This document shows, piece after piece, positions 49,110-55,936 of a DNA stretch of 64,000 nucleotides. Position 1 is the stretch's first letter, and each line of letters begins with the position of its first letter. Source of the DNA: Pseudobdellovibrionaceae bacterium (lineage in GTDB: Bacteria > Bdellovibrionota > Bdellovibrionia > Bdellovibrionales > Bdellovibrionaceae); NCBI GenBank assembly GCA_019637875.1, contig JAHBUW010000004.1, positions 62,001 to 126,000 on the forward strand. The letters run 5' to 3'. The position numbers and the translations under genes were made by a program. The notes under the pieces were generated by a model. It was given only the letters and a program-made list of their open reading frames with translations. It did no database searches and was not told the origin of the DNA.

Positions 49110-49271
49110 ATGGACAAACAACAAACTCAAGCTGCCGTCGAAACTTCGAACGCGATGTCGGCCGGTCCCTCGATCATTCGCCGCCTGTTGAACACGGTTC
49201 CCGACGAGCTTCTGAAGCTGCTGGCGGAAATCGAAGCGCAAGAGTCGTCGCAGGATCAAGACGCGCAGTAG
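49110..49271 (+). CDS. Candidate RiPP precursor peptide (53 residues)
   Basis: ATG 49110 follows GGAGG by seven bases, while the frame is open 183 bases upstream without such a signal and with a low-quality Arg/Pro-rich translation. The peptide has a Gln/Thr/Ala-rich start, an amphipathic helix around SIIRRLLNTVPDELLKLLAE (residues 21-40) and a polar tail EAQESSQDQDAQ. It directly precedes the methyltransferase gene (66 bases), as precursor genes often do. The helix suits leader recognition, and the Asp/Gln-rich tail suits beta-hydroxylation. No core cleavage site is evident. It could also be a small accessory or recognition protein. Confidence 0.6.
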   Translation: MDKQQTQAAVETSNAMSAGPSIIRRLLNTVPDELLKLLAEIEAQESSQDQDAQ

Positions 49272-49336
49272 TTTTTCTTGCCTCGGTTCGCGAAGGGATG
49301 CGCGGACCGAAGCCCCCACTTTTTCCGGAGTCCCCC

Positions 49337-50155
49337 ATGACCCTCTATCTCGTCGGCATCGGTACCAAAGGCCTCGAACAGATCACTTTGGAAGGCCTGA
49401 ACGTTCTTAAACGCAGCGAAAAAATTCTGAGTTTTCAGGTCCGTCCCTTCGAGATGCTCGAGTTCGCGACCGCGCAGGATCTGGTCGACCCCGAGTTCAT
49501 CGACGATCTTTACCAAGACGGCGCCGTCGACAACGACAATTACGCCCGTATCCTCAACCATATTCACGCCGTCGGTCGCGAGTTCGGCACCGTTTCGCTT
49601 CTCGTGCAAGGACATCCGCTTCTGGGCGTCACCATCGCCCAACGTTTGAAGGCGGCTTACGGCACGCAGGTCCGCGCGATCGCGGCGCCTTCGAGTCTCG
49701 ACAATCTTTTCATCGAACGCTGGCGCGACCCTTTGGACCGCGGATCTTTGATGATCGACGCGAACCGCCTGCTGCTTTTCAATCAAAACCTCAATCCCGA
49801 AATGGACACCTACATCTACCATGTCTGCTCGGTCGGAAACTCCGCCACGGATTTTCTGGAGCCCTGGCGGGGGAACCGTTTGGAACTTCTGCGCGATCAG
49901 CTTCGCAAGTTCTGGCCCGGCGATCACGTGATCGAATTTCTGCACTCGCCCGAAGACGAGACCGGCGCGGCGGGCCCCGTGCGGGTCATCACCACCACGA
50001 TCAATGAGATGACGACCGCGGTGAAGAACGTGCACTTCGGGATGACGTTACTCGTTCCCGGCGTGAAGCCGAAACACGTCGACCGCGAGTTCCTGCGCCT
50101 GCTGGTGCCGGTGAAGCCGGCGGTGGATCACGTCACCGACGGAGCCGTCCGGTGA
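49337..50155 (+). CDS. Tetrapyrrole-methylase-fold methyltransferase, borosin-like
   Basis: This 272-residue protein has the TP-methylase fold with TLYLVGIGTKGLEQ (SAM loop) and LLVQGHPLLGVTIAQ. Order and spacing follow the split borosin N-methyltransferases from memory: ANRLLLFNQNLNPEMDTYIY corresponds to their FMFFNHxxDP segment, and LRDQLRKFWPGDHVIEF to their LxxxYPLDHEVVIYE. Borosin enzymes methylate backbone amides of a peptide. GGAG stands nine bases before the ATG at 49337. The stop overlaps the oxygenase start (GTGA). No cobalamin or haem pathway genes are present. Peptide methylation is inferred. Confidence 0.72.
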   Translation: MTLYLVGIGTKGLEQITLEGLNVLKRSEKILSFQVRPFEMLEFATAQDLVDPEFIDDLYQDGAVDNDNYARILNHIHAVGREFGTVSLLVQGHPLLGVTIAQRLKAAYGTQVRAIAAPSSLDNLFIERWRDPLDRGSLMIDANRLLLFNQNLNPEMDTYIYHVCSVGNSATDFLEPWRGNRLELLRDQLRKFWPGDHVIEFLHSPEDETGAAGPVRVITTTINEMTTAVKNVHFGMTLLVPGVKPKHVDREFLRLLVPVKPAVDHVTDGAVR

Positions 50156-50706
50156 TTAACCCCGCTGCCGAAATCCAAATGCGCCGCGCGCCTTGGACCT
50201 GTCTCATCGTCGACGATTTTCTGGACGCCGCCTTTCTGGGCGAGGCCCTTCAGGCATTACGCATCGGCGAGTTCGAGCAGGCTCCGGACGACCGTCTCGG
50301 GGTTCGCTTTCAGGCTTTGGGTTCGCTTCCGCTCGCGCGCTTTTTTATGGGCCGTGAGTTTCGTGAGTTCGTCTCGGCGCGTACCCAAACTCCGTGGAAA
50401 TTCGATGCGACCAGTTGGATCCAGCTGCGCCAGATGACATCCGCCTCGACGCCGCTCCCGCGTCACACGGACCGTCTGCCCGGGCGTCAGGCCGTGGCGC
50501 TGTTTTACCTGAACGAGGCGTGGCCGACCGCCAATGGCGGCGAACTCTGCCTGCACGCGGGCGAGACGGGCGCGGACGAGGTGCGGATCGCGCCGAAGCT
50601 GAATCGGCTCGTGTTTTTCGAATCGAACGAGCGCACCTGGCACAGCGTGCGGCCCGTCCGGGCGGGAACGCGTTTGAACGTCAGCTGGGAAATGAGCGCG
50701 CGATGA
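50152..50706 (+). CDS. 2-oxoglutarate/Fe(II) oxygenase (prolyl-4-hydroxylase-like)
   Basis: In this 184-residue double-stranded beta-helix enzyme, Fe(II) ligands are His105 and Asp107 in PRHTDRLPGRQ and His164 in ERTWHSVRP. Arg174 in TRLNVSWE is positioned to bind 2-oxoglutarate. The phrase ALFYLNEAWPTANGGELCLH is typical of the P4H-like group. It would hydroxylate a carbon of a peptide or other substrate using O2. It is coupled on both sides (GTGA and ATGA overlaps). It shares the WHSVRP/WHAVRP core with the second oxygenase at the operon's end, but the two are otherwise diverged. Confidence 0.82.
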   Translation: MINPAAEIQMRRAPWTCLIVDDFLDAAFLGEALQALRIGEFEQAPDDRLGVRFQALGSLPLARFFMGREFREFVSARTQTPWKFDATSWIQLRQMTSASTPLPRHTDRLPGRQAVALFYLNEAWPTANGGELCLHAGETGADEVRIAPKLNRLVFFESNERTWHSVRPVRAGTRLNVSWEMSAR

Positions 50707-51401
50707 TTTTGCGAACCTCCGCCGAGCTGCAACGCCTTTTCGACGATCGTCGCGAGACGCTGCGTCTGCTGTGGGACGAAGACTTTCGCGTGGCCGCCGA
50801 AGCGCTGCGCGCCCCGCTTTTGCGCGCGGCGCGGGCGGACGGATCCATCGTCGTGGGCCGGGACTCCGCGCGGGGTGCGGCGACGGACGTCTCGCCGGAA
50901 TTTCCGGTCGAGCCCGAGTTTTTCGCGCGGCCGATCGCGGTCGAGACCCTTGGTCCGCTCGTGGCGGGGCTCCGTTTAGTCGAGGGCGCGAACGCCTCCT
51001 GCGCTCAAGGCGTCGTCACGGTGCCCGCGCGGGGGATGACCTTGGGGTGGCTCCGGATGGTCGCGCACGAAGCGGGGCACGCGCGGTTCGACGCCCTTCA
51101 TCCGGGCGAGGACTTCGCGACCGTGCTGGCGTCCGAGGTCGCGGCGCTCGAAACCGAACGCCGATTCATGCAGACCCAAACGTTGCCCGCGGAATTCGCG
51201 GCGTACCTCGCGTACCAACGCGCTTGGGACCGCGTGAACTTGTGGGCGCGCGGCTGGGAGCTGCGCGAGATCGAGGCGGGGCACGCCCGCGCCAGGCCCC
51301 GCAAGCTGTGGGCGCTCGAATGGGCGAGTTCGCGCGTGGGATTCACCGAAGTTTTAACGGCCGCCGTGCCCTTGGTTTTTCCGGAATTGGGATTGGAGTA
51401 A
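50703..51401 (+). CDS. HEAGH metallopeptidase-like protein of the peptide operon
   Basis: This 232-residue protein has zinc-binding HEAGH at residues 122-126 and, 18 residues later, an acidic segment LASEVAALETERR that can supply the third ligand (Glu145 or Glu150), as in gluzincin-type peptidases. The N-terminal half is unlike known peptidases, and a Trp/Arg-rich C-terminus follows (LWARGWELREIEAGHARARPRKLW). It has no signal peptide, so it is cytoplasmic. In its operon it could remove the leader from the modified peptide. It may instead be another HExxH hydroxylase. The ATG overlaps the oxygenase stop. Confidence 0.6.
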   Translation: MILRTSAELQRLFDDRRETLRLLWDEDFRVAAEALRAPLLRAARADGSIVVGRDSARGAATDVSPEFPVEPEFFARPIAVETLGPLVAGLRLVEGANASCAQGVVTVPARGMTLGWLRMVAHEAGHARFDALHPGEDFATVLASEVAALETERRFMQTQTLPAEFAAYLAYQRAWDRVNLWARGWELREIEAGHARARPRKLWALEWASSRVGFTEVLTAAVPLVFPELGLE

Positions 51402-51404
51402 TCG

Positions 51405-52772
51405 ATGAAAGAGTTGATCGCGTTTTTTCCGAAGTCGTCTTGGTTTCGCATGTCGTTCTGGCTTTTCCTGGAGCAGGGACTGGTCGCGCTTTCGACCTAC
51501 GCGCTGATTCGCGCCTCGGGGCTCGCGGCGACGGACGTCGCGGCGGCTTCCCCGTGGGTGCTCGTCTTTTTGTTCGCGCTGAGCGCGCCTTACGTTCCCG
51601 GTATCTTCGGTCGGCGCGAACTGGAGTCGGGGGTCCAATCGGCGTACCGCAACTTCCTGAGCGCGAATTTTCCCGCGGACGGCGAGGGGATCCGCCGCTG
51701 GGCGCGCCGCGATCAGCGTGAAACTTTTCTGGCGAGCGTGACGGGCGAAGCGCTGGGGCAGCTGCGCCAGGTCGCCGCGACCGTGTTCGACATCACGGCG
51801 GTGCTCCTGAACGTGACTTTGAATCTCGCGGTTCTGGGCTATCACTTTCATCCCGTGATCGCGGCGGCGTTCGCGCTCGGAACGGGCGTGGCGTTTTTGA
51901 TTTTCCGCCGGATGCTCCCGCGCATCGACGCCGTCTCGGAAGAGGCGCAGGTCTCACGCACGGCGCTGTTCGCGAAACTCCAGCGTTCGTGGGACAATAT
52001 GTTCGCGGCCCACGCCGTCCACCGGGGCGCGTTCCGCACGTCGCTGGACGCGGACCTGGGGCGTCACCGGACAAAGGCCATGGGCGCGGTCACGCTGTCC
52101 GAGCTCGTCTCGGTGGGAACGACCTTCGCGATCCTGACGCCGGTGCTGGTGTCGGTGGTCGTGCTTCTGCAAATGAATCCGACGGCGGCGTTTCTGGCGT
52201 CGATGCTCGCGACCTTGCCGCGGCAATTTCAGGTGATGGGGAACCTGCAGGTGTTCTTGAGCTACATGACGGCGCTCACGGGAATTTCGGCGCAGGCCCG
52301 TCAGGTGCTCGCGCAGTGCCGGATCGAAGAGCTTCGCACGGAAGACTTCGTTAGCCTCGATCAATTGCGTCTGAGCTTCCGTCGCGAGTCCGAAGGCGAG
52401 GTCGTCGCGGCTTTGGGCGCCCGCGAGATGCTGGCGGGACGTCTGCCCGCGAAGGGACGTTTGGTCGTGCGCGGCCCCAACGGCGCCGGTAAATCGAGCC
52501 TGCTGTTGAGTCTGAAAGGAAAGCTTGGCGACGGGGCTTACTATTTGCCCGCGCATTCGGACTTCTGGGTCGAAACCGAGAATCGCACCTCGTCCTCGGG
52601 CGAAAAGATCCTGCGGACTTTGGAGTTCGCCGAGAAGCGGGGCCTGCCCCCCGTGATCCTGCTCGACGAGTGGGACGCGAACCTGGACGCCGAAAACCGC
52701 GCGCGGATCGCCGATCGACTCGAAGCCCTCGCGGGCGCGCATTTGATCGTCGAGGTTCGCCATCATGCCTAA
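51405..52772 (+). CDS. ABC exporter with unusually short ATPase domain
   Basis: In this 455-residue protein residues 1-330 contain several hydrophobic helices (FWLFLEQGLVALSTYALIRA, AASPWVLVFLFALSAPY, VFDITAVLLNVTLNLAVLGY, ISELVSVGTTFAILTPVLV type), as in a half-transporter. A compact ATPase domain of about 110 residues follows: Walker A RGPNGAGKSS (about 356), signature-like SSSGEK (about 396), Walker B VILLDEWDAN (about 417) and a terminal His pair VRHHA. Only about 40 residues separate Walker A from the signature, against about 100 normally, so the helical subdomain is mostly missing. It probably dimerises and exports the peptide. Confidence 0.75.
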   Translation: MKELIAFFPKSSWFRMSFWLFLEQGLVALSTYALIRASGLAATDVAAASPWVLVFLFALSAPYVPGIFGRRELESGVQSAYRNFLSANFPADGEGIRRWARRDQRETFLASVTGEALGQLRQVAATVFDITAVLLNVTLNLAVLGYHFHPVIAAAFALGTGVAFLIFRRMLPRIDAVSEEAQVSRTALFAKLQRSWDNMFAAHAVHRGAFRTSLDADLGRHRTKAMGAVTLSELVSVGTTFAILTPVLVSVVVLLQMNPTAAFLASMLATLPRQFQVMGNLQVFLSYMTALTGISAQARQVLAQCRIEELRTEDFVSLDQLRLSFRRESEGEVVAALGAREMLAGRLPAKGRLVVRGPNGAGKSSLLLSLKGKLGDGAYYLPAHSDFWVETENRTSSSGEKILRTLEFAEKRGLPPVILLDEWDANLDAENRARIADRLEALAGAHLIVEVRHHA

Positions 52773-53418
52773 TTCCACGGAGAGGGCCCGTGACTTCTTG
52801 CCGACGGGCTTTCCGGGCTACCGGCTGCAAAGTCTCAAACCGACGACGGAAGTCTTCGAACATGAACTGGCGGATTTCGCGGCGGGGCTGCCCGGGGCGT
52901 TGGACTTCATTCGCGCACACTCCCCTTGGGCGGCGAAACTCCGTCGGGAAGGTGACGTCGCCGAGGCTTTTTCCTCGGCCGCTTATCCCGAGTGCCCGGG
53001 GATTGTCTTCTACACCGAGCTGATTCGTTTTCACCTGCCGCCCTCGCAAATCTGGGGACCGGGACGCGCTTGGGGGAGCTATCCGGTTCTCGAAAATCTG
53101 GTGCACGAGAGCGTTCATCATTGGTGGGGGCGCGAGTGCACGCGCTTCGCGGAATTGGCCCCGCTTCTGCAAAACGAAATTCGGGTCTCCTGGCGCGAGC
53201 AAGCCTGGAGCGTGGATAAGGCGCTGCACGCGGGAATGGTTTATCTCGCGGCGACGGAGCTGCGCTGGATGTACGCTCCGGAAGAGGTCGAGGTCGCCCG
53301 TCGGGCCGCCGCCGAGATCTTCGCCGCGCTTCCGCCGGGTGAGTGGAACGTCGGGGCGCGGGCGACGTTGGAATCGCCGAGCGCGGGTCGATTTTTAGAA
53401 AGGTTGGGGATCAAATGA
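52765..53418 (+). CDS. HExxH protein resembling 2OG-dependent peptide beta-hydroxylases
   Basis: In this 217-residue protein HExxH is at residues 114-118 (LVHESVHHW), followed by VSWREQAWSVDKALHAGMVYLAATEL at 141-166. From memory, the order HExxH, then Trp-Arg, then Leu-His-Gly/Ala and a Tyr-Leu helix matches the HExxH-motif modification domain found in RiPP loci, whose members are Fe(II)/2OG-dependent peptide beta-hydroxylases. His155 could be the third metal ligand. The start overlaps the exporter stop by eight bases. No signal peptide is seen, so it acts in the cytoplasm before export. A conventional protease is the alternative. Confidence 0.65.
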   Translation: MPNSTERARDFLPTGFPGYRLQSLKPTTEVFEHELADFAAGLPGALDFIRAHSPWAAKLRREGDVAEAFSSAAYPECPGIVFYTELIRFHLPPSQIWGPGRAWGSYPVLENLVHESVHHWWGRECTRFAELAPLLQNEIRVSWREQAWSVDKALHAGMVYLAATELRWMYAPEEVEVARRAAAEIFAALPPGEWNVGARATLESPSAGRFLERLGIK

Positions 53419-53957
53419 CAACGGGATATCAAGCGACGCCTTTTCAACATTGGATCGCGGACGACTTTTTACCGACGGCGATTCTGGCGCGTGCGGAAAA
53501 CGCGTTCGCGGGCCTCGGCGACGCGGATTTCCTGCCGCATCCCACGGGTTATCGTTTCGGCGTTTGTCGGGACGTCGAAGTCTTGAAGTTCCTGTACTCC
53601 TCCGAAATGAAGTCCCGCTTGGAATCCCTCTTCGGTCGCAAGGTGAAACGTTCCTCGCGTTATCCGGTGCCGCAGTATTACGACTATCCGGAAAACTCGA
53701 ACGGTCTTCCGCCCCACACTGACGCGGACGAGAAGCGCGACCTCGCGATGATCATCTATTTGAACGAGGACTGGAGCTCGGCCTCGGGTGGTGAGCTCGT
53801 GGTGATGAATTCACCTGTGGACGTGGCGACGACGATCGCGCCGCTGAAGAACCGCATGGCTTGCCTGGAGCTTCATCCCGGCGCCTGGCACGCGGTGCGC
53901 CCGACCGCGGCGGGCTTTCGCCGCCGCACGCTCATCGTGGATTGGGATTTCGTTTAA
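53415..53957 (+). CDS. Second 2-oxoglutarate/Fe(II) oxygenase of the operon
   Basis: This 180-residue enzyme has His101 and Asp103 in PPHTDADEKRDL, His159 in GAWHAVRP and an Arg cluster RRRTLIVDWD for 2-oxoglutarate. The core MIIYLNEDWSSASGGELVV is P4H-like. It shares fold and motif order with the first oxygenase of the operon, but its substrate-side loops differ (RYPVPQYYDYPENSNG). Its ATG overlaps the HExxH gene stop (ATGA). It closes the operon, sharing TTAA with the convergent DUF885 gene. A peptide-modifying role is inferred from context. Confidence 0.82.
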   Translation: MTTGYQATPFQHWIADDFLPTAILARAENAFAGLGDADFLPHPTGYRFGVCRDVEVLKFLYSSEMKSRLESLFGRKVKRSSRYPVPQYYDYPENSNGLPPHTDADEKRDLAMIIYLNEDWSSASGGELVVMNSPVDVATTIAPLKNRMACLELHPGAWHAVRPTAAGFRRRTLIVDWDFV

Positions 53958-55936
53958 CGATCGCCCGCCATTTCGGCTTTGACGAGCTCGCGAATCTGAT
54001 CGGGCGGCAGAAAGCCCATCTTCACGACCGCGTCGTTGAAGCGCATGAGGTCGAACTTCGCGCCGAACTCTTTGCGCATGTCTTCGCGCAGCCGCAAGAG
54101 AAGCTCGTAACCGTACAGATAAGAGGCGTCACTCGGGAAGTCGCGGTCGAGGTAGCGGGTCTTCACCTCATCCGCCGCGGTGGACTCGTCCAGACCGACG
54201 TGTTCGATCAGAAATTGGACGGCCTCTTCCGCGGGGAGAGCTTCGCGGTAAAGACGGCTTTCCAAAACCACGCGCGCCGCACGCCATTGACGTAGGCGCA
54301 GGAACTCGGCGCGCAGATCGTTCGAGATCTCTCCCATCGCCTCTTCCACGAGTTTTTCGGCGTAGAGCGCCCAGCCCTCGACGCTCAGTCGTTGCTCGGC
54401 CAGGAACGAGCGGGCGAGCGTGCTTTGTCCGTTTGCGAAGCTGCGGAACTGAAGCTCGTGGCCGGGGCGGGCCTCGTGCGCCATGATCGGAAACGCGACT
54501 TCGGGTTTGAGCAGTTTCGGCGCTTTGTCTTGCAGATACTCGAAGGCCGGGAAGGTCACGCGCGGAATGGAAAGTCCGTTCGAGATCGGCGAGTGGGCCA
54601 AATAGTTTTCGGCCGACATCGACGGTACAAGATTCGAACAGAAACGCATTTTCTCTTTGTAAGGGTAGTTGGCGACGTTGCACTCGACGATTTTGACCGG
54701 CTCTTCGGGAAGGGTGATGATCCGCTCCGCGCGTAAAAGCGCGTCGATCCGGTCGGCCATGCGGTGGAAGGCGTCGAGCATATCTTCGCTGGAGCGTAAG
54801 GTGGGGAGCGCCAGAAGTTGGGCCTGTCGCGCGGGCGCCGGGCCGGAGTTCGGTCCGAGCGCTTTCATCTCGGCTTCGATTTCACGCAGTTTGCGTTCAC
54901 CGAAGGCGTAAACCTCGGCGGGCGTGGCGTTGATGCCGGCCGTGCGGTACTTGACGAGCAGGTCGGCCTCGGTGCGCGCTTTGTCTTGCGTGCGAGGCTG
55001 TGCATCGAGTTCTGCTTGGTGGGATTTCATCCAGTCCCCGAATTGAGCCAAGTCTAACTCCAGCCGAGCGAGGGCTTCGGTGTCTTTGGGAGAGGGATTT
55101 TCGAAGGGCTTACTCAAGGTTTTCATGTACGCCGCGCGCTGCTCATCCAGGATGAAGAAGTTCAGCATTTCTTTCGAGACCCGCAGCGCATTTTTCGCGA
55201 GCTGCGTTTCGATCTTGCGACGGAGCTCCGTGAAATAGCCGGGGCCTTGGGCGGGTGCCATTTGGCGAAGCATTCCGGACATCGCTTCCGGAGTTTGGGT
55301 GGTGTGCACGTTCCAGATGGGGTTGAGGATCAGGTCCTTGATGTCGCCGCGCTGGAGGTCGTTCTCGACGCTTAGAATTTCGCGCGCGATCATCGCGCGG
55401 AGGGAACGGACGTCGGCTTCGAGGTGAAGTTTTTCGAGACGGGAAAGCTCGCGGGGCGTTTTGAATTCCGCGAGCCGCGTTTCCCATCTCCGCAGGAGGG
55501 AGAGGCGTTTTTCGCTCTGGAACGGGTCGAGGGGATAGCGGGGAACGTCGGGACGGAAGTTACGGACGTACCAGCGGATTCGGGAGTCGTTGATGAGGGC
55601 GAGGTCGTTGATGAGCTGAAGGCTCAGGGCATTGGAGTGCTGTTTCCATCCCTGGGCGCCCGAGACGTCCAGCTGCGCCATCGGGAATGTGAGTTTCGAA
55701 GCGGTCAACGGAGAGTTCGAGATCGTCGAACCGCGCCCGCCCGGGAAGTGAATGCCGACGACGGAGTCGAGGTCGGGCAGGTGGGCCTCATGATTGTGGG
55801 GCCGGGGGACCGGATGCTCCAGAAAAAGATTCGCGCTGGAGGTGGGCGCGGACGAGGGCGTGCAGGCTTGGGCGAAGAGCGCCAAGCAGACGAGGCCGAG
55901 CTGCGGAAGCCAAGATGTCGGACGAGGGTAAGCCAT
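53954..55936 (-). CDS. DUF885 family metallopeptidase-like lipoprotein
   Basis: This 660-residue protein has a lipoprotein signal (LPQLGLVCLALFAQAC) and the DUF885 domain: the zinc motif MAHEARPGHELQFRSF (HExxPGH) and the downstream EGWALYAEKLVEEA supplying the third ligand. This family contains peptidase-like proteins of the M32-related type. The mature N-terminal about 60 residues are Ser/Pro/His-rich (SSANLFLEHPVPRPHNHE), a linker from the membrane. It ends in a shared TTAA with the peptide operon, to which it is convergent. It is likely a periplasmic or outer-membrane peptidase, and its substrates are unknown. Confidence 0.85.
   Translation of the reverse strand: MAYPRPTSWLPQLGLVCLALFAQACTPSSAPTSSANLFLEHPVPRPHNHEAHLPDLDSVVGIHFPGGRGSTISNSPLTASKLTFPMAQLDVSGAQGWKQHSNALSLQLINDLALINDSRIRWYVRNFRPDVPRYPLDPFQSEKRLSLLRRWETRLAEFKTPRELSRLEKLHLEADVRSLRAMIAREILSVENDLQRGDIKDLILNPIWNVHTTQTPEAMSGMLRQMAPAQGPGYFTELRRKIETQLAKNALRVSKEMLNFFILDEQRAAYMKTLSKPFENPSPKDTEALARLELDLAQFGDWMKSHQAELDAQPRTQDKARTEADLLVKYRTAGINATPAEVYAFGERKLREIEAEMKALGPNSGPAPARQAQLLALPTLRSSEDMLDAFHRMADRIDALLRAERIITLPEEPVKIVECNVANYPYKEKMRFCSNLVPSMSAENYLAHSPISNGLSIPRVTFPAFEYLQDKAPKLLKPEVAFPIMAHEARPGHELQFRSFANGQSTLARSFLAEQRLSVEGWALYAEKLVEEAMGEISNDLRAEFLRLRQWRAARVVLESRLYREALPAEEAVQFLIEHVGLDESTAADEVKTRYLDRDFPSDASYLYGYELLLRLREDMRKEFGAKFDLMRFNDAVVKMGFLPPDQIRELVKAEMAGDR

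Follow-up and report, generated by a model that had tools for sequence, protein, structure and literature searches.

A candidate RiPP-type operon with a borosin-related methyltransferase and peptide oxygenases in Bdellovibrionota

The operon described here is best read as a RiPP-type pathway, in which a 53-residue precursor peptide would be modified by a methyltransferase, two prolyl-hydroxylase-like oxygenases (P4H1 and P4H2) and an HExxH protein, and then exported. We put the probability of this reading at roughly 0.8. The operon lies within the 64,000-nucleotide stretch of DNA that was analysed (the window), in a genome of 3.98 Mb in 30 contigs. Apparently, it is one of a small group of pathways for peptide modification that has not been described so far and has further members in chlamydiae and on Serratia plasmids.

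The initial annotation had described a tight operon of a peptide, a methyltransferase, two P4H-like oxygenases, a HEAGH protein, an ABC exporter and an HExxH protein, and all seven open reading frames were found on one strand between positions 49110 and 53957 (Table 1). A GGAGG box is located a few nucleotides upstream of the ATG of the peptide gene. From the methyltransferase gene onward, the junctions overlap by a few bases or have a gap of 3 nt. The gap between the peptide and methyltransferase genes contains a GC-rich hairpin, which was considered as a terminator and rejected, as its z-score is only −0.63 and a clear U-tract is absent; a terminator scan did not pick up this hairpin either. 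Hairpins at the same position in three related loci (L006, L018 and L026) score better than that of the window, and the element is, tentatively, a possible attenuator or processing element. A gene for a DUF885 protein (53954–55936, minus strand) is convergent with the operon and its end overlaps the P4H2 gene by 4 nt; it was not counted as an operon member.

Table 1. Features of the operon, in window coordinates.
Feature	Position	Strand	Remarks
Precursor peptide gene	49110..49271	+	53 aa; leave-one-out profile rank 1 of 1375 window ORFs; homologs in 6/6 other assessable methyltransferase loci
GC-rich hairpin between peptide and methyltransferase genes	49268..49336	+	Folding energy −20.8 kcal/mol, z −0.63
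TP-methylase-fold methyltransferase, sister family of borosin peptide N-methyltransferases	49337..50155	+	272 aa; PDB profile, tree, Foldseek
P4H1, prolyl-hydroxylase-like 2OG-Fe(II) oxygenase	50152..50706	+	GTG start; Pfam; HxD...H...R intact
HEAGH zincin-like protein	50703..51401	+	Probable metallopeptidase (from motif); HExxH and downstream Glu
ABC half-exporter, TMD and NBD	51405..52772	+	BmrA/PCAT1-like by profile
HExxH protein, aKG-HExxH peptide beta-hydroxylase-like	52765..53418	+	TIGR04267 match below cut-off
P4H2, prolyl-hydroxylase-like 2OG-Fe(II) oxygenase	53415..53957	+	Pfam 2OG-FeII_Oxy_3

The peptide (MDKQQTQAAVETSNAMSAGPSIIRRLLNTVPDELLKLLAEIEAQESSQDQDAQ) carries a conserved motif at approximately residues 19–44. 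A profile calculated from five related loci, with the window peptide excluded, placed the window peptide first among the 1375 ORFs of the 64 kb (E-value 1e-4, next 0.2), which rules out a chance small ORF. Six loci were treated in this way, and in all of them the excluded peptide ranked first among the ORFs; the profile of all six peptides ranks the Serratia peptide first. The expectation that related operons would also contain a peptide gene was borne out, since a homologous small peptide is encoded in all seven assessable methyltransferase loci, the window included. A small precursor gene is thus kept beside the modifying enzymes, as in RiPP pathways. Among 359 Bdellovibrionota genomes, strong matches to the peptide profile occur only in the four that contain the methyltransferase; the peptides were originally found beside methyltransferases, so that this co-occurrence is partly circular and its independent part is only the absence of extra copies. 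Four weaker matches from the same search fall within ORFs of 472–646 residues. The Pfam NepR match of the window peptide (0.032) is below the cut-off.

The peptides are of two flavours that have one motif in common. The first, GPS[IV][IV]RRLLN.[VI]P...LL.E, is present in the window and in a Bdellovibrio sp. MAG (G046), together with P4H and HEAGH genes; the second, PRCL..LP.NI...I..F, accompanies radical SAM genes. The precursor on the Serratia plasmid NZ_CP033895.1 contains three HPRLQAAAPMNLAKVIGGF units separated by short linkers, an arrangement that agrees with the release of a modified core from a leader. Between any two of these copies, 13 of 19 codons differ without a single amino-acid change, which points to strong selection on the unit, and therefore the conserved motif is probably the modified core. 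Conserved parts of RiPP precursors are usually recognition parts, and the unit could be such a part instead of the core, or may hold recognition and core residues together. This property of RiPP precursors, together with the apparently helical character of the conserved part (judged from its sequence) and its C-terminal position in G030, would also suit a small protein with a regulatory or scaffold role in the enzyme complex, with the enzymes acting on another molecule. We consider such a role improbable, because three tandem identical units with short linkers, as in Serratia, are typical of multi-core precursors, because the methyltransferase, HExxH and 2OG enzymes are of the kinds that act on RiPPs, and because the exporter and hydroxylases are repeatedly accompanied by small peptides.

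The methyltransferase matches Pfam TP_methylase with 37.9 bits (cut-off 27.8), and every one of its nearest relatives among solved structures is a borosin enzyme. When the PDB was searched with the single sequence, dbOphM came first, followed by MroMA, OphMA and SonM. The profile of five family methyltransferases matched MroMA at 2e-21 and SonM at approximately 3e-14, whereas the best non-borosin TP methylase reached 1e-6. The best 50 Foldseek matches of the AlphaFold2 model (pLDDT 68.5, five sequences) were all borosin enzymes, with SonM first at 1e-13. In a maximum-likelihood tree of eight family methyltransferases, eleven borosins, RsmI and CysG, from which YabN and SonM were left out, the family forms one group (97/98) and the borosins another (85/92), and RsmI and CysG are placed outside both on long branches. 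In this tree, the family stands beside the sampled borosins as their sister group and not within them. No relative of the methyltransferase was found in the viral contigs and phage records searched. The literature searched does not describe the family; its coverage lacked key borosin surveys (e.g. Imani 2022), and an earlier mention is possible.

A cobalamin/siroheme or RsmI-type enzyme in a chance neighbourhood would have the same fold superfamily. Such an origin could account for the weak match to the CbiL profile and for YabN being the nearest curated profile (33–55 bits to the family and 41 to dbOphM). The VIA-align scores of the model, Z 14.6 for SonM and 13.6 for uroporphyrin-III methyltransferase, are nearly tied and too close to separate the two by fold alone. 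However, the PDB profile search favours borosins by approximately 15 orders of magnitude in E-value, the tree sets RsmI and CysG apart, and the linkage to peptide and exporter is conserved in Bdellovibrionota and Chlamydiota. Clustering with CobA/CysG- or RsmI-type enzymes, for which the initial annotation had wanted the methyltransferase checked, was not found. The RsmI/CysG-type origin is largely refuted by the profile search and the tree, and we give this explanation almost no weight.

The label of a split borosin-like methyltransferase holds with regard to the relationship, but not for membership in the borosins proper. The catalytic arginine of borosins (SonM R67, OphMA R72) is present in all eleven borosins compared and is replaced by aspartate in all eight family methyltransferases. 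In SonM, the R67A variant has only trace activity and is essentially dead, and R67K is approximately 100-fold less active (PMC8429565). The tyrosine of the YGHP box (SonM Y93, OphMA Y98), found in ten of the eleven borosins, is A, P or Q in 8/8 family members, the Trp-Gln of borosins has become Tyr-His, and E.[TS][DE] has become D.NR. The pocket thus looks remodelled relative to that of the borosins. Family members retain the GHP box, two N-terminal glycines and, in 8/8 cases, the tyrosine equivalent to SonM Y71 and OphMA Y76; the Y71F substitution lowers the activity of SonM approximately 100-fold (PMC8429565). The borosin-binding domain (BBD) of SonA comprises residues 1–53 (PMC8429565), and, judged by length only, the family peptides (35–77 aa) and methyltransferases (257–272 aa) leave little room for such a domain.

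We did not file the methyltransferase as a borosin, because the tested defining residue, the catalytic arginine, is missing. Backbone N-methylation is a plausible reaction, but should not be taken for granted in view of the change of Arg to Asp, the loss of the YGHP tyrosine, the sister-clade placement and the short precursors, the length of which leaves little room for a BBD. An ordinary split borosin alpha-N-methyltransferase that has no binding domain, yielding a backbone N-methylated and hydroxylated product, is nevertheless a serious possibility, although we would not bet on it. It would agree with the borosin identity of the closest solved relatives and the retained tyrosine, and borosins in which no BBD is recognised have already been described as a class (PMC11395268). 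The invariant aspartate, at a position where SonM does not tolerate even lysine well, the accompanying substitutions and the separate clade of the eight enzymes argue against it. We give slightly less than even odds to a new RiPP class common to Bdellovibrionota, Chlamydiota and Serratia plasmids, in which the Arg-to-Asp, Tyr-less borosin-related methyltransferase performs a methylation other than classical backbone N-methylation, and 2OG, HExxH or radical SAM enzymes carry out further oxidation of the conserved peptide unit.

Relatives of the methyltransferase are rare, with the known loci few and mostly from MAGs. They were detected in 3 of 66 genomes of the family, 3 of 141 of the order and 4 of 369 of the phylum, in 4 of 234 genomes of the class of a Parachlamydiales MAG (one with a fragment only), and in two further Chlamydiae MAGs by a scan of genome contigs. 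A tblastn search of plasmids located the gene on p2-125 of Serratia liquefaciens and a degraded copy on pE17 of S. marcescens. On pE17 (L075, 5666–6419), the three-unit precursor is nearly intact and the methyltransferase is broken. In G046, the ABC and peptide genes are divergent from the methyltransferase, P4H and HELGH genes. The order peptide, methyltransferase, ABC, small radical SAM protein is found in G030, G328, L009 and G467, and the proteins of G030 and G328 exceed the Radical_SAM cut-off. L010 has the order methyltransferase, ABC, radical SAM, and its contig begins too near the methyltransferase gene to show a peptide. In G444 (L022, 6139–12758; from the Chlamydiae-class search), a transposase gene cuts the methyltransferase gene and a second pair of HExxH and ABC genes follows. 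The Serratia plasmid NZ_CP033895.1 encodes the peptide, methyltransferase, HExxH protein and 2OG oxygenase, and an MFS transporter is encoded on the other strand. Small radical SAM proteins of 197–229 aa replace the oxygenases in PRCL-type clusters (L006 4296–4889, L009 3226–3846, L018 3362–4051, and L021 8351–8980 on the minus strand), and those scanned did not fit curated radical SAM maturase families. Two further plasmids carry borosin-like methyltransferases: one from Haloarcula (L025, 1728–4747) encodes an archaeal enzyme, preceded by a small gene and accompanied by a prolyl oligopeptidase, and that of Bradyrhizobium sp. 155 (L077, 1757–6769) encodes two, of which one is followed by a TauD-type dioxygenase, whereas the other is preceded by a small gene and has a prolyl oligopeptidase gene on the other strand.

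Two P4H-like oxygenases had been proposed, and both pass the cut-off of Pfam 2OG-FeII_Oxy_3 (57.9 bits for P4H1 and 52.4 for P4H2). The HxD...H...R motif is present in both, with its H, D, H and R invariant in the alignment. P4H2 also matches the NCBIfam YhhC family at 9.5e-9, below the cut-off. Prolyl hydroxylation is the first guess for these enzymes, because their family profile is closest to OGFOD1 (2e-19), followed by the putative hydroxylase 9blq and HIF prolyl hydroxylases. The invariant proline need not be the hydroxylation site, since PRCL-type loci retain it without a P4H gene. The HExxH protein had been likened to 2OG-dependent peptide beta-hydroxylases; the kind of enzyme is right, but the window protein itself (TIGR04267, 5.8e-8, 32.9 bits) does not reach the curated cut-off of 40, whereas related proteins of the same exporter-linked set exceed it with 41.9–58.1 bits. 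The HExxH motif and the second His/Arg region are kept in the alignment, and the family profile weakly matches ChlH (8s5f). Characterised enzymes of the TIGR04267 family hydroxylate beta-carbons and can also cleave the backbone oxidatively (PMC12636437), and therefore the HExxH protein could also perform trimming.

The HEAGH protein is probably a metallopeptidase, as its HExxH motif and downstream glutamate are conserved in the G046 homolog. It has no match in Pfam, NCBIfam or PHROG, and its AlphaFold2 model from two sequences (pLDDT 41) is unusable. The ABC half-exporter is probably a peptide exporter; its profile is of the BmrA/PCAT1 type, the peptidase domain is absent, and the family matches are sub-threshold only. 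Its gene is conserved with all methyltransferase loci except that of Serratia. In PADLOC, the ABC protein matches mad3 (2.9e-12), which was taken as generic ATPase similarity.

Of 359 genomes of the phylum, 24 contain matches to the ABC family, many of which are surrounded by one of two further kinds of cluster, without the methyltransferase, in which small peptides accompany a hydroxylase. Clusters of the first kind combine P4H, ABC and peptides of 35–49 aa with a motif like R..L....IP.E[IV]..L, and are likely another peptide-hydroxylation cluster. Peptides with this or a close motif occur with P4H and ABC genes in L058, L061, L063, L067, L069 and L070; L071 has a similar peptide and ABC, and a P4H was not detected there. 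Kinship of the window peptide with these IPxEI peptides is only suggestive, as the two families align with an hhalign probability of 12% (E 0.0023) and the IPxEI profile did not find the window peptide. The second kind combines an HExxH protein, in some cases an approximately 365-aa protein without known function, ABC and small peptides, several of which end in or near MIMIAFD. Peptides ending in or near MIMIAFD or MIAF are encoded in L059 (3831–4010), L065 (9461–9592, minus strand), L066 (8285–8443, minus strand), L068 (3930–4052) and L056 (9315–9455, minus strand), and three of these loci also carry the protein of approximately 365 aa. The HExxH proteins of L055, L065 and L066, and that beside the second ABC of G444, are above the TIGR04267 cut-off. 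The combination of MIMIAFD/MIAF peptides, a TIGR04267-like HExxH protein and ABC is a candidate RiPP class of its own. The operon of the window looks like a combination of both chemistries, P4H and HExxH, with a methyltransferase.

Based on these comparisons, a pathway can be proposed, in which the chemical steps, their order, the export and the peptidase roles are predictions from sequence. The precursor would consist of a variable N-terminal leader (approximately residues 1–18) and the conserved core unit GPSIIRRLLNTVPDELLKLLAEIEAQ. The methyltransferase, which may descend from the same stock as the borosin backbone N-methyltransferases with its active site remodelled, would methylate the core unit with SAM at a backbone amide or another position. 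P4H1 and P4H2 would hydroxylate the unit, most naturally at the invariant Pro31 and Pro20. The HExxH enzyme may contribute beta-hydroxylation of a side chain or oxidative cleavage. Trimming of the peptide is the probable task of the HEAGH protein, and the product would be secreted through the ABC half-exporter.

The family would provide a second, catalytically rewired branch of the enzymes behind peptide backbone N-methylation. How borosin enzymes deprotonate an amide is an unsolved question, for which the family offers a natural Arg-to-Asp contrast. The exporter also marks small oxidised peptides as a set, both in chlamydiae and in predatory bacteria, a group with little-explored natural products. 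Owing to the Serratia plasmid, the pathway is found in a genus that can be cultured, with a precursor of evident multi-core type.

Among known systems, the split borosins of type IV (SonM-SonA of Shewanella) similarly have a discrete TP-methylase-fold methyltransferase of similar length and an adjoining small peptide gene, and the GHP box and the equivalent of Tyr71 are kept in the window family. In contrast to SonM, the family has Asp in place of Arg67, has lost Tyr93 and shows concerted changes at further pocket residues; the family precursors, judged by their length, leave little room for the five-helix BBD of SonA, and the operon adds P4H, HExxH and ABC genes. The fused fungal borosins (OphMA, dbOphMA, MroMA) include the best sequence-profile matches (2e-21), whereas the window methyltransferase is not fused to a core and its active site is different. 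With the aKG-HExxH beta-hydroxylases (TIGR04267; ChlH, PflC/PosC, BpmH), the window protein shares the HExxH motif, the conserved downstream His and Arg and the RiPP context, but it is shorter, scores below the family cut-off and occurs together with a methyltransferase and a pair of 2OG oxygenases. P4H1 and P4H2 have the HxD...H...R arrangement of the 2OG-Fe(II) prolyl hydroxylases (OGFOD1, PHD2, P4H, and the RiPP relative YhhC), but are short, single-domain proteins, present in two copies and coupled to a small peptide and an ABC exporter. The exporter resembles ABC bacteriocin exporters such as PCAT1 in the TMD-NBD half-transporter architecture indicated by its profile, and differs from them in its lack of a C39 peptidase domain, its compact NBD with an LDEWDANL box and its weak similarity.
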